From: Microbacterium sp. Root53
Lineage (GTDB): Bacteria > Actinomycetota > Actinomycetes > Actinomycetales > Microbacteriaceae
Length of the DNA stretch: 64,000 nucleotides
Reading direction: 5' to 3'
Assembly: GCF_001426925.1 (NCBI RefSeq)
Contig: NZ_LMFR01000005.1
Coordinates: forward strand, 1 to 64,000
Shown: piece after piece, positions 2,914 through 7,385 of the stretch
How the letters are laid out: every line of letters begins with the position of its first letter
How positions within the stretch are numbered: position 1 is the first letter of the stretch
The notes under the pieces: model-generated
Told to the model about the DNA's origin: nothing
What the model saw: the letters and a program-made list of their open reading frames with translations, nothing else
Databases searched by the model: none
Made by a program: the position numbers and the translations under genes

Positions 2914-3001
2914 GGCGTCCACGCTAGGAGCCGCCGAGGGGGAGTGGGCCCGGATCAGCGACATCGGCCGCACCTCGGTCGACACGGGGGAGGATGGACG
3001 G

Positions 3002-3783: not shown

Positions 3784-5166
3784 TCAGAACGGCGCGGTCT
3801 CTTCGACCTCGACCGGGGGCGGATCGGGGTCGGTCGCATCGAGTTCGGCCATGAAGCGTACCGCTGGGCCGGGGCGGTCGGTGATACGGCGTCCGGTGGG
3901 GCTCGTCCAGATCATGACTCCGCCGGGTCCGTGCTCGAGACCCCATGCGCCGTGGTGCTTGAGCATGTGGTGCGCCCGACAGAGCGCCGAGAGGTTGCAC
4001 ACCGCGGTGTGGCCGCCCTCGCTGTGAGCATGGGAGTGGTCGAGGTCGCACCGGTGGATCGGCTGCCGGCAACCCGGGAACCTGCAGTGCTCGTCGCGCG
4101 CGGCGAGGAAGCGGCGCTGGGCGGCGGTCGGCGTGTATGCGTCGACCGTGCGGAGGCACCCGGTGTCGGGATCCATGAACAGCCGAGTCCAGGTCGCGGT
4201 GTCGGCGGCGAGCCGGCGGGCGATGTCGGGGGAGACGGGCCCGTGCCCGGCCAGGAACGCGGCGTCGTCGCCGAGGCCCACGAGCGTCTCGGCGGGGATC
4301 GTGATCTGCACGGAGCCGCGGATCGCCGCCAGCGCGTTGCCGCCGGTCGCATCGGACACGTGCGCGGTGGGGTGCCCGGTGAGCACGAGGTCGGCGAACA
4401 CGTCGGCCCTGATCTGCGCAAGCGTGCGCTCATCGACCGGGTCGCCGTCCTCGACGGCGAGGTCGTCGACGACGGGCCCGTACGCGCGACGCGCCTCGTC
4501 ACGTGCGGCGCGCCGGATCGTGAGCCCCATCTGGGTGAGCCGGTCCTGGATCGCGTGCGCCCGCACCGACTCGACCACCGCGTGGAACTCGCTCATCCCA
4601 TCGCCGAGGTCGTCCACCCAGGTGCACCGCCGCGCGCGGGCGTTCTCGTGCCGCTCGACGACCGACGTGGGCTCCACCCGCTCGGCAACGGCGTGCGCGA
4701 CCGGTCGCAGGCGACCCGGCGTCAGCGACTCGGCGCGATCGAGCACGACCTGCTCGTACCGGGCCCGCGCGCGCTCATCGTCGAGCCGCAGCCCGGCATC
4801 CACGATCACGTCCGCGTGCGCGCGGGAGATCCGCCCCTCCGACAGGGCGGCGTACGTCGCGGGGAAGTCGGTCGTGAGGATCGCGGCACCGTTCATCCGG
4901 CTGCGGATCGTGCCGTCGGCCGCGTTGGTCGCGGTGGCGATGTCGGCCGCGATCGCCCGCAGCGGCAGCGCATGCGACGACGACGGATCGAGCTCGGCCA
5001 TGATCTCCACCGCGATCGCCTGCCCCGCCGCAAGGAAGTGCGCCTTCATCGCCTCGAGCTGCGCGATCATCCGATCCGCGGTCGCCACCCCCGTGATGAC
5101 CGCCTGCAGCGCCTCACGCCGGGCGGGATCCAGGTCCCATCGCTCCGCGAAACTCTGCTTGACCAT
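3784..5166 (-). CDS. DUF222 / HNH endonuclease domain protein
   Basis: 460 residues. A long alpha-helical DUF222 region (the mycobacterial 13E12 repeat family) occupies roughly residues 10-330. It is followed by a zinc-binding HNH domain (about 355-405) with CRFPGC, CDLDHSHAHSEGG and LCRAHHMLKHHG, so the Cys pairs and catalytic His are all present. This family is present in many copies in actinobacteria and its biological role is unsettled; it has the look of a selfish or repair-associated endonuclease. ATG 5166 fits the usual N-terminus. A palindrome lies 24 bases upstream. A second, damaged family member lies at 51303-52718. Confidence 0.88.
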   Translation of the reverse strand: MVKQSFAERWDLDPARREALQAVITGVATADRMIAQLEAMKAHFLAAGQAIAVEIMAELDPSSSHALPLRAIAADIATATNAADGTIRSRMNGAAILTTDFPATYAALSEGRISRAHADVIVDAGLRLDDERARARYEQVVLDRAESLTPGRLRPVAHAVAERVEPTSVVERHENARARRCTWVDDLGDGMSEFHAVVESVRAHAIQDRLTQMGLTIRRAARDEARRAYGPVVDDLAVEDGDPVDERTLAQIRADVFADLVLTGHPTAHVSDATGGNALAAIRGSVQITIPAETLVGLGDDAAFLAGHGPVSPDIARRLAADTATWTRLFMDPDTGCLRTVDAYTPTAAQRRFLAARDEHCRFPGCRQPIHRCDLDHSHAHSEGGHTAVCNLSALCRAHHMLKHHGAWGLEHGPGGVMIWTSPTGRRITDRPGPAVRFMAELDATDPDPPPVEVEETAPF

Positions 5167-5340: not shown

Positions 5341-5796
5341 TCAGTTCGCCGGGATGTCTGCGAGCACTCGATCGATCCATGCGTGGCGGCGGAGGTCGCG
5401 CACCTCAGCGAACGTGAACCAGCGCGTCTCGATCAGTTCCTGCTCTTCAAGCACGATGGCGGTCGTGTCGAGGCGGCATTCGTACGCGGTCGTCACGTAG
5501 GCGACCTCATCGCCGTTCGGATAGACGTTGGTGAGCTCCGGACCGCCGTAGGCGCCGATCACCCGGACGATGGACGGAGCCACACCGAGCTCTTCGCGGA
5601 CTTCGCGCTCCAGCGCTGCTCGGGGATCCTCTCCAGGCTCGACTCCTCCACCGACGAAGCTCCACAACCCGGAGTCGCGGTGGCGCGCCAGCAGCAGCTG
5701 ATCCCCGTGTCGGATGACCGCGGTGACTGCGGGAAGAAGCAGCAGGTCCCGTCCGATCCGATCGCGGATCGCGCGGACGTAGGGCGACATCGGCAT
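5341..5796 (-). CDS. Nudix hydrolase
   Basis: 151 residues. The Nudix box is complete: GGVEPGEDPRAALEREVREE followed by LGV, giving the G-x5-E-x7-REUxEExGU pattern that binds the catalytic Mg2+ (about residues 50-72). It should hydrolyse a nucleoside diphosphate linked to another group; the substrate is not evident. The N-terminal MPMSPYVRAIRDRIG and LLLPAVTAVIR fit the group of Nudix enzymes preceded by a short helix. The start at 5796 has TATGGT exactly six bases upstream, consistent with a leaderless mRNA. It is divergent from the small VOC gene. Confidence 0.88.
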   Translation of the reverse strand: MPMSPYVRAIRDRIGRDLLLLPAVTAVIRHGDQLLLARHRDSGLWSFVGGGVEPGEDPRAALEREVREELGVAPSIVRVIGAYGGPELTNVYPNGDEVAYVTTAYECRLDTTAIVLEEQELIETRWFTFAEVRDLRRHAWIDRVLADIPAN

Positions 5797-5872: not shown

Positions 5873-6259
5873 ATGCTCATCGTGGGGTCGATCGTCATCC
5901 GGGTGAGGGACATCGCCGTGCAGACGGAGTTCTGGACCCGGGTCCTCGACTACGAGGTGCGCGACCCATCCGACGACGACTTCGTCGTGCTCATCCCTCG
6001 CCGCGGTGGAGGCCCCAACGTCTCGCTCGACGCCGCGCCGTCGGAGCGGGTGTTGCCGCCTCGCATCCATCTCGACCTCTACGCCGAGGACCAGTCGGCC
6101 GAGGTGCGCCGGCTGATCGGCCTCGGCGCGTCGGAGGTGCGATGGTCGAAGCGCCCCGCCGACGCCGACTACGTCATCCTCGAGGACCCCGAGGGCAATC
6201 GCTTCTGCGTGATCGACGCCGCGGGCTGGCACGGCTGGGCAGCCCACCGCGAGCGGTGA
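5873..6259 (+). CDS. VOC (glyoxalase/bleomycin-resistance fold) family protein
   Basis: 128 residues forming one VOC domain: VGSIVIRVRDIAVQTEFWTR at the start, a central DDDFVVLIPRRGGGPNVSLD, IHLDLYAEDQSAEVRRLIGL, and VILEDPEGNRFCVID at the end. Members of this subgroup are usually annotated as glyoxalase-like enzymes of unknown substrate. The family needs paired domains or dimers for metal binding, so a homodimer is expected. It is followed 46 bases later by the DinB-like polymerase gene on the same strand. The function cannot be given more precisely. Confidence 0.8.
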   Translation: MLIVGSIVIRVRDIAVQTEFWTRVLDYEVRDPSDDDFVVLIPRRGGGPNVSLDAAPSERVLPPRIHLDLYAEDQSAEVRRLIGLGASEVRWSKRPADADYVILEDPEGNRFCVIDAAGWHGWAAHRER

Positions 6260-6305: not shown

Positions 6306-7385
6306 ATGGGTGCCAGCGCGTGGGTGCTGCATGTCGACATGGACCAGTTCATCGCCGCAGTCGAGGTGCTGCGTCACCCGGAGCTCGCGGGCCGGCCCGT
6401 GATCGTCGGCGGGCGCGGCGATCCGACCGAGCGAGCCGTCGTGTCGACGGCGTCGTACGAAGCACGCGCATACGGCATCGGCTCCGGGATGCCGCTGAAG
6501 ATCGCGGCGCGCAAGGCGCCCCCGGACGCCGTGTTTCTCCCGGTCGATCATGAGGCCTACGAACGCGCGTCGACCGAGGTGATGGACACGCTGCGCGCGC
6601 TGCCCGGCGTCGTGCTCGAGGTGCTCGGATGGGACGAGTGCTTCCTCGGCGTGACGACCGCCGATCCCGAGTCCGTCGCGCATGACGCGCAGCGGGCCGT
6701 GCTCGCGGCGACGCGGCTGCACTGCTCCGTGGGCATCGGCGACAACAAGGTCCGCGCGAAGATCGCGACGGGCTTCGGCAAGCCGAGAGGGATGTTCCGC
6801 CTCACCGAGGAGAACTGGTTCGACGTGATGGGCGAACGGCCCACGCGCGAGCTCTGGGGAGTCGGCACCAAGGTGCACAAGCGCCTCGCGGCTCACGGCA
6901 TCGACACCGTGCGGCAGCTCGCGGACGCCGACCCCGCCGTGCTCGTCGCGGAGTTCGGCCCGCGGATGGGCGTCTGGTACCGCGAGCTCGGCCACGGAAT
7001 CGGACCGCGCGTGGTGGACGACTCGCCGTGGATCGCGCGCAGCCACAGCCGGGAGACGACCTACCAGCAGAACCTCACGGGGCCGGATGCGGTGCACACG
7101 GCGGTCGCCGAGCTGGCCCATCAGGTCTGGGATGACTGCGCGACGGACGGACGAGCGGTGGTGCGCGTGCACCTGAAGGTCCGGTACGCGCCGTTCGAGA
7201 CGAAGACCATCGGGCGAAAGCTCGCGGAGCCCGCGCGCAGCGAGCACGTCCTGGTGGACGCCGCGCTCGCGCTCGCGCAACGGATCGACTCCGAGCGCGA
7301 GATCCGCCTGCTCGGAGTGCGCGCGGAGATGGCGATGCCGGCGGGTGACGAGATCGAGCGCACACCGGTGCGCGGGCGGATCTGA
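6306..7385 (+). CDS. dinB: Y-family DNA polymerase IV, DinB2-like
   Basis: 359-residue translesion DNA polymerase. The palm begins with LHVDMDQFIAAVE (residues 8-20), with metal-binding Asp11. The second catalytic motif is GWDECFLG, supplying the Asp-Glu pair near residue 115. Later regions include the HhH segment ELWGVGTKVHKRLAAHGI and a little-finger domain ending in LLGVRAEMAM. The LGWDE form of the catalytic motif matches mycobacterial DinB2 rather than E. coli DinB. The steric-gate position is Ile16, not the usual Phe or Tyr. The protein lacks an obvious C-terminal beta-clamp motif of the QLxLF type. No LexA box is visible upstream. Confidence 0.88.
   Translation: MGASAWVLHVDMDQFIAAVEVLRHPELAGRPVIVGGRGDPTERAVVSTASYEARAYGIGSGMPLKIAARKAPPDAVFLPVDHEAYERASTEVMDTLRALPGVVLEVLGWDECFLGVTTADPESVAHDAQRAVLAATRLHCSVGIGDNKVRAKIATGFGKPRGMFRLTEENWFDVMGERPTRELWGVGTKVHKRLAAHGIDTVRQLADADPAVLVAEFGPRMGVWYRELGHGIGPRVVDDSPWIARSHSRETTYQQNLTGPDAVHTAVAELAHQVWDDCATDGRAVVRVHLKVRYAPFETKTIGRKLAEPARSEHVLVDAALALAQRIDSEREIRLLGVRAEMAMPAGDEIERTPVRGRI

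Follow-up and report, generated by a model that had tools for sequence, protein, structure and literature searches.

A DinB2-like DNA polymerase of Microbacterium sp. Root53 with an isoleucine steric gate and a threonine polar filter, and the distribution of both residues among its relatives

The window analysed here is a stretch of 64,000 nucleotides from Microbacterium sp. Root53 (NZ_LMFR01000005.1, positions 1 to 64,000). It contains a full-length open reading frame with an ATG start, whose product is a Y-family DNA polymerase of 359 amino acids; this gene, its key residues, its neighbours and the other Y-family matches of the genome are presented in Table 1. The protein begins with HVDMDQFIAAVE, which includes D11-M12-D13-Q14-F15-I16. 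Based on Pfam, it contains the IMS catalytic domain (PF00817, 131.7 bits, cut-off 23.2) and the IMS_C little-finger domain (PF11799, 65.5 bits, cut-off 20.7). The NCBIfam DNA polymerase IV equivalog PRK03352 is matched at 531.7 bits (cut-off 330), and the second-best NCBIfam model reaches 256.4 bits, below its own cut-off. The top PDB sequences are the four MsDpo4/DinB2 chains of Mycobacterium smegmatis (335–338.5 bits), followed by the next sequence at 148.7 bits. An AlphaFold model, for which the window protein was combined with 53 related loci as input, has a mean pLDDT of 95.7. The structures closest to this model are the MsDpo4 complexes 6jun, 6jul, 6juo and 6jum (Z 39.5–39.7, 51% identity; best 6jun, Z 39.7), while the match to E. 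coli DinB is weaker (Z about 33, 28% identity).

Table 1. Positions of the polymerase gene, its key residues, its neighbours and further PF00817 matches of the genome
Feature	Position	Strand	Basis or remark
DinB2-like Y-family DNA polymerase, 359 aa	6306..7385	+	ORF; PF00817, PF11799; PRK03352; AlphaFold model
Asp11, first catalytic metal ligand	6336..6338	+	Asp in 192/193 DinB2-like rows, 1 gap
Ile16, steric-gate position (Leu14 M. smegmatis DinB2, Phe13 E. coli DinB)	6351..6353	+	codon ATC; alignment; position named in PMC4176160
Thr48, 'polar filter' position (Cys47 M. smegmatis DinB2, Thr43 E. coli DinB)	6447..6449	+	alignment
Asp110-Glu111, catalytic acidic pair within GWDE motif	6633..6638	+	D and E in 192/193 DinB2-like rows
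DUF222 protein	3784-5166	-	neighbour of polymerase gene
NUDIX hydrolase	5341-5796	-	neighbour; beside DinB2-like gene in the window's own locus only
Glyoxalase-like protein	5873-6259	+	neighbour of polymerase gene
Second Y-family gene, same genome, PF00817	contig 20, 142848-143285		Tyr gate, Ser filter; outside DinB2 clade
Third PF00817 match, same genome	contig 21, 141380-141745		47.4 bits to PF00817

In trees computed after masking of the gate and filter columns, the DinB2-like rows are split from the aromatic-gated rows at an SH-aLRT of 100, and the window protein falls on the side of M. smegmatis DinB2 and not on that of aromatic-gated DinB; these trees are quick searches with SH-aLRT support and no bootstrap, containing 22 (first tree) and 11 (second tree) rows from outside the clade. 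The window protein is thus a member of the DinB2 clade, and the kinship with DinB2 proposed in a first-pass annotation is borne out by the PRK03352 score, the structural match to MsDpo4 and the tree split. Within this known actinobacterial group of repair polymerases it is an ordinary enzyme. The PF00817 match on contig 21 was not recovered by phmmer as a homologue of the window protein.

Among named relatives the nearest belong to Microbacterium, mostly at 73–80% identity (63% for locus L059). Searches of the genus found an Ile gate in nine of the nine other DinB2-like loci, and no DinB2-like match at E<=1e-60 in two of 12 genomes. The nine Ile gates, like the PRK03352 score, speak against a chance resemblance. 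Named Microbacterium loci retain the gate and filter residues wherever these are readable, L009 being the unreadable one; in this locus, from a Microbacterium metagenome-assembled genome, the best open stretch is without the N-terminal part which carries gate and filter, perhaps through a frameshift or an assembly error. The genus also appears to contain two lineages of DinB2-like genes, one 74–79% identical to the window protein (L086, L115–L117) and one 64–65% identical (L090, L122–L124, L130); L117 and L090, L122–L124 are placed apart on the tree. Two diverged DinB2-like genes per genome are also present in three genomes (G458, G509, G502) of one genus (g279).

Concerning the genomic context, the seven neighbouring ORFs tested are each found beside DinB2-like genes in one to nine of 134 loci, a count which includes the window's own locus where the flank reaches; the flanks extended over 4 kb or 1.5 kb, with some truncated at contig ends. 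The DUF222, NUDIX and glyoxalase-like neighbours are each linked to DinB2 in at most one other examined locus. The NUDIX gene was rejected as a MutT-like partner on the basis of its distribution (Table 1). An operon or shared regulation was likewise rejected, as there is no conserved neighbour and no LexA-like box of the patterns tried was found between positions 3000 and 9000. A simple search for the clamp-binding motif Q[LMI]xx[LF], which a divergent motif could escape, found none in the 359 residues, so that this DinB1-type trait is not seen. A mobile origin was also rejected: 276 plasmid records match at E<=1e-30 and 33 phage records at E<=1e-15, none of them reaching 60% identity (34.8% for the best phage match among those listed), and this comparison gave no sign of mobility of the window copy. 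The first three plasmid matches among those listed are all actinobacterial and DinB2-like, with gate and filter Leu/Thr in Tsukamurella, Ile/Thr in Nonomuraea and Gln/Cys in Nocardia. In the first of these (Tsukamurella tyrosinosolvens, NZ_LR134447.1) the gene adjoins uvrA and the genes of two hypothetical proteins and an MBL-fold hydrolase; the group may be a DNA repair cassette carried on the plasmid.

The catalytic acids D11, D13, D110 and E111 are all present and conserved, and G108 and W109 are each kept in 190 of 193 DinB2-like rows. The first-pass annotation had described the LGWDE motif as matching DinB2; GWDE is indeed common to both proteins, but M. smegmatis DinB2 has WGWDE, and E. 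coli DinB has SLDE. It is hardly credible that the protein is inactive or unexpressed. Such a view could draw on the patchy presence of the gene in the genus, and on the missing neighbour and LexA-like box; the catalytic residues are nevertheless intact, the ORF is full length, and gate and filter are kept in the named Microbacterium loci.

In a MAFFT alignment the column of Ile16 contains Leu in M. smegmatis DinB2 (PDB 4dez chain) and Phe in E. coli K-12 DinB, and these residues, Leu14 and Phe13, are named as the steric gates of the two enzymes in PMC4176160 (papers given by PMC number are cited from the available part of their text). The aliphatic gate which the first-pass annotation had read from the sequence therefore stands, and the alignment places no aromatic residue of the window protein at this position. 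Among DinB2-like enzymes an Ile gate is not new: in 2014, M. smegmatis DinB2 was described as founding a clade which occurs in many Actinobacteria and whose gates are Leu, Ile or Val, with nine Ile taxa listed (PMC4176160), and Ile16 fits this description. The Ile-gated polymerases listed there (Kribbella, Amycolatopsis, Arthrobacter, Beutenbergia and others) share with the window protein the gate residue and, by description, the clade, and as far as their sequences tell differ from it in genus only; 'Microbacterium' was not found in the available text of that paper. All seven Kribbella loci examined (L076, L078–L083) are Ile/Thr, though they come from a scan biased towards Ile. A 2026 survey describes DinP/DinB2 as a group of actinobacterial enzymes that incorporate ribonucleotides with ease, and the words 'steric' and 'gate' were not found in its main text (PMC12926913).

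At the second sugar determinant, the 'polar filter', the alignments place Thr48 of the window protein opposite Cys47 of M. smegmatis DinB2, so that the Cys-for-Thr replacement of the M. smegmatis type, in which both determinants are absent, is not present here. The residue numbers Cys47 of DinB2 and Thr43 of E. coli Pol IV, which we take to be those of the filter, are consistent with the alignments. Work by Johnson in 2019 reportedly identified Thr43 of Pol IV as the filter, with Cys47 in its place in MsDpo4, and a Cys47-to-Thr change is said to reduce rNTP use strongly. The filter residue of Sulfolobus Dpo4 is presumably also Thr. The MsDpo4 sequences in the PDB are L14/C47 (wild type, 4dez), L14/T47 (6jum), Y14/T47 (6jun) and Y14/C47 (6juo), and these variants indicate that the gate and filter pair was engineered in this enzyme; with Thr48 opposite Cys47, the pair of the window protein resembles that of 6jum and not that of wild-type DinB2. 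The two enzymes are otherwise alike in their Y-family fold (51% identity, rmsd 1.4–1.6 Å over 343 residues; 4dez, 6jul), in the GWDE motif and the non-aromatic gate, and in being without a C-terminal clamp-binding extension (for DinB2: PMC4176160). They differ in Leu14 and Cys47 against Ile16 and Thr48, DinB2 belonging to a clade with Cys filters. E. coli DinB shares the fold and the filter Thr and differs in its Phe13 gate and in SLDE in place of GWDE.

It might be thought that the aliphatic gate alone decides, the window enzyme then using rNTPs with the ease of M. smegmatis DinB2 and laying down 'ribo patches' when dNTPs are scarce. This is in line with the loss of RNA polymerase activity in DinB2 L14F and its gain in DinB1 F23L (PMC4176160), and with the E. 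coli DinB gate mutant, in which ribonucleotide incorporation rises from <1e-5 to 1e-3 (PMC3901139, a review). The genome also encodes RNase HII and Ku, so embedded ribonucleotides would be removable and end joining is likely present. We nevertheless consider this unlikely: Thr48 restores the determinant missing from DinB2, the 1e-3 of the E. coli mutant is below the 1/297 to 1/100 of DinB2 (in different assays), and RNase HII, present in 14 of 14 control genomes, is unspecific, so that the two genes are compatible with a 'ribo patch' role without pointing to it. The first-pass claim that this enzyme may insert rNTPs as DinB2 does is therefore only partly supported. Some rNTP use is likely, because the E. 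coli gate mutant gains it with Thr43 presumably intact; a proficiency like that of DinB2 does not follow from the gate, since the argument overlooks the second determinant.

The reading we favour, and think probable, is that of an active DinB2-clade gap-filling or lesion-bypass polymerase with intermediate sugar selectivity. With Ile16 the gate would be open, the 2'-OH of an rNTP meeting no aromatic ring, and the retained Thr48 would keep the sugar of the incoming nucleotide in place against the fingers, to the disadvantage of rNTPs. As it keeps this second sugar-excluding residue, the window enzyme is probably pickier about the sugar than its mycobacterial relative. The sugar selectivity in magnesium is 100–297-fold for DinB2 and 3400–20500-fold for other Y-family enzymes (PMC4176160); bracketed by these figures and by the E. 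coli gate mutant, a value of about 1e3 is predicted for the window enzyme, stricter than M. smegmatis DinB2 and looser than aromatic-gated enzymes. The rNTP use of an Ile/Thr enzyme should thus be intermediate rather than absent. The patchy presence in the genus and the lack of a clamp-like motif, of conserved neighbours and of a LexA-like box of the patterns tried would fit an accessory role in gap filling or translesion synthesis, as proposed for DinB2 (PMC4176160, PMC10159617).

Of the two causes given for rNTP use by DinB2, one is the absence of the polar filter (PMC10159617), but several observations count against a simple two-residue rule. The hydrogen-bond mechanism of the filter is disputed, as only three of 20 proposed bonds were strict when structures were re-examined (PMC10639073); gate mutants of other Y-family polymerases, Sulfolobus Dpo4 among those cited, gain rNTP use (PMC4176160); and Rev1 has both residues with a discrimination of only 280-fold (PMC9130138), so that selectivity is not determined by the identity of the residues alone. 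In addition, the genus with the DinB2-like proteins nearest to M. smegmatis DinB2 also has DinB1-looking loci, which in the alignment combine a Phe gate with Gly at the filter; because M. smegmatis DinB1 is strict on sugar (PMC4176160), an enzyme with a closed gate can seemingly do without the filter.

For the distribution of both residues, the window protein was searched against two partly overlapping sets, 396 genomes from the phylum and 394 from the class, and a mycobacterial-type DinB2-like protein against 201 genomes of its family. Together these searches yielded 200 distinct DinB2-like places, spread over 197 genomes, 54 genera and 15 families: 113 from the phylum and class searches and 87 from the family-aimed search, which raises the share of Cys, so that the proportions depend on sampling. 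Rows below 230 bits, which were treated as lying outside the clade, repeats of one place and G062 (match from residue 38, two stops, gate unreadable) were dropped before counting, and the window's own copy and three plasmid places stand outside the 200. A contig scan, in which 79 of 80 loci were Ile/Thr (L009 unreadable), was left out of the tally because HVDMDQFI, one of its six search patterns, is biased towards Ile.

The gate/filter pairs of the 200 places are Ile/Thr (79), Gln/Cys (53), Leu/Thr (31), Leu/Cys (22), Val/Thr (14) and Leu/Ser (1); an Ile, Leu or Val gate is thus combined with a Thr filter in 124 places, the other 76 having Cys (75) or Ser (1). In the 113 phylum and class places the pairs are Ile/Thr (52), Leu/Thr (25), Leu/Cys (16), Gln/Cys (11) and Val/Thr (9). 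The Leu/Cys pair of the studied DinB2 is a minority, in 22 of 200 places or in 16 of 113 before the family-aimed search. Thr is the filter in all 84 places outside one family (f6), which holds all 76 Cys/Ser cases among its 116 places; those put in the tree form one clade (57 rows, SH-aLRT 98). Our literature search, which left most subscription papers outside its scope, found no report of the filter residue across the DinB2 clade in the available texts.

A Gln gate with a Cys filter is found in 53 places of family f6 and in Nocardia farcinica (NZ_LN868939.1). The gates listed in the available text of PMC4176160 are Leu, Ile and Val only, and the same literature search found no paper joining DinB2, glutamine and the steric gate.

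No aromatic gate was found among the 200 DinB2-like places. This rests partly on the 230-bit limit, which falls between a Gln-gated row at 237.2 bits and a Phe-gated row at 215.2 bits; the trees agree with the limit, the 22 outside-clade rows of the first tree being few of many available. Counting those that involve Gln, the clade has seen at least 15 (first tree) or 16 (second tree) changes of the gate, and at least one change of the filter, or two with the Ser row counted. On the simplest reading, with the direction of change inferred, the non-aromatic gate is old and has drifted for the most part between Ile, Leu and Val, and the Thr filter was lost later and only once, in the lineage to which the studied enzyme belongs.

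So many gate changes without an aromatic residue would also suit a gate selected for lesion or mismatch preference (e.g. 8-oxoguanine or slippage), with rNTP use as a side effect. Overexpressed DinB2 L14F is more harmful than the wild type in M. smegmatis (PMC10159617), and E. coli DinB variants of the aromatic triad, F13 included, survive DNA damage poorly (PMC3096655), which agrees with such tuning; yet the clade's studied enzyme uses rNTPs readily, and we regard this explanation as quite improbable.

The window protein itself being ordinary, the gate-by-filter map is a useful by-product of the analysis. It raises the possibility, which we hold with some doubt, that the two sugar filters are naturally separated: most DinB2-like enzymes, the window's included, would have the gate open and the polar filter closed, and one mycobacterial-type lineage would then have lost the filter and also given rise to the Gln-gated enzymes. 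If so, the statement that DinB2 inserts ribonucleotides would be valid only for a derived subset, and the Ile/Thr enzymes would form a distinct class of intermediate selectivity. To our knowledge, tests of the two filters have used engineered substitutions. In the available texts of the literature searched, the rNTP-using reputation of the clade rests on one mycobacterial enzyme with a minority residue pair; the window enzyme, together with a Thr-to-Cys change, could apportion the contribution of each filter in a natural background.
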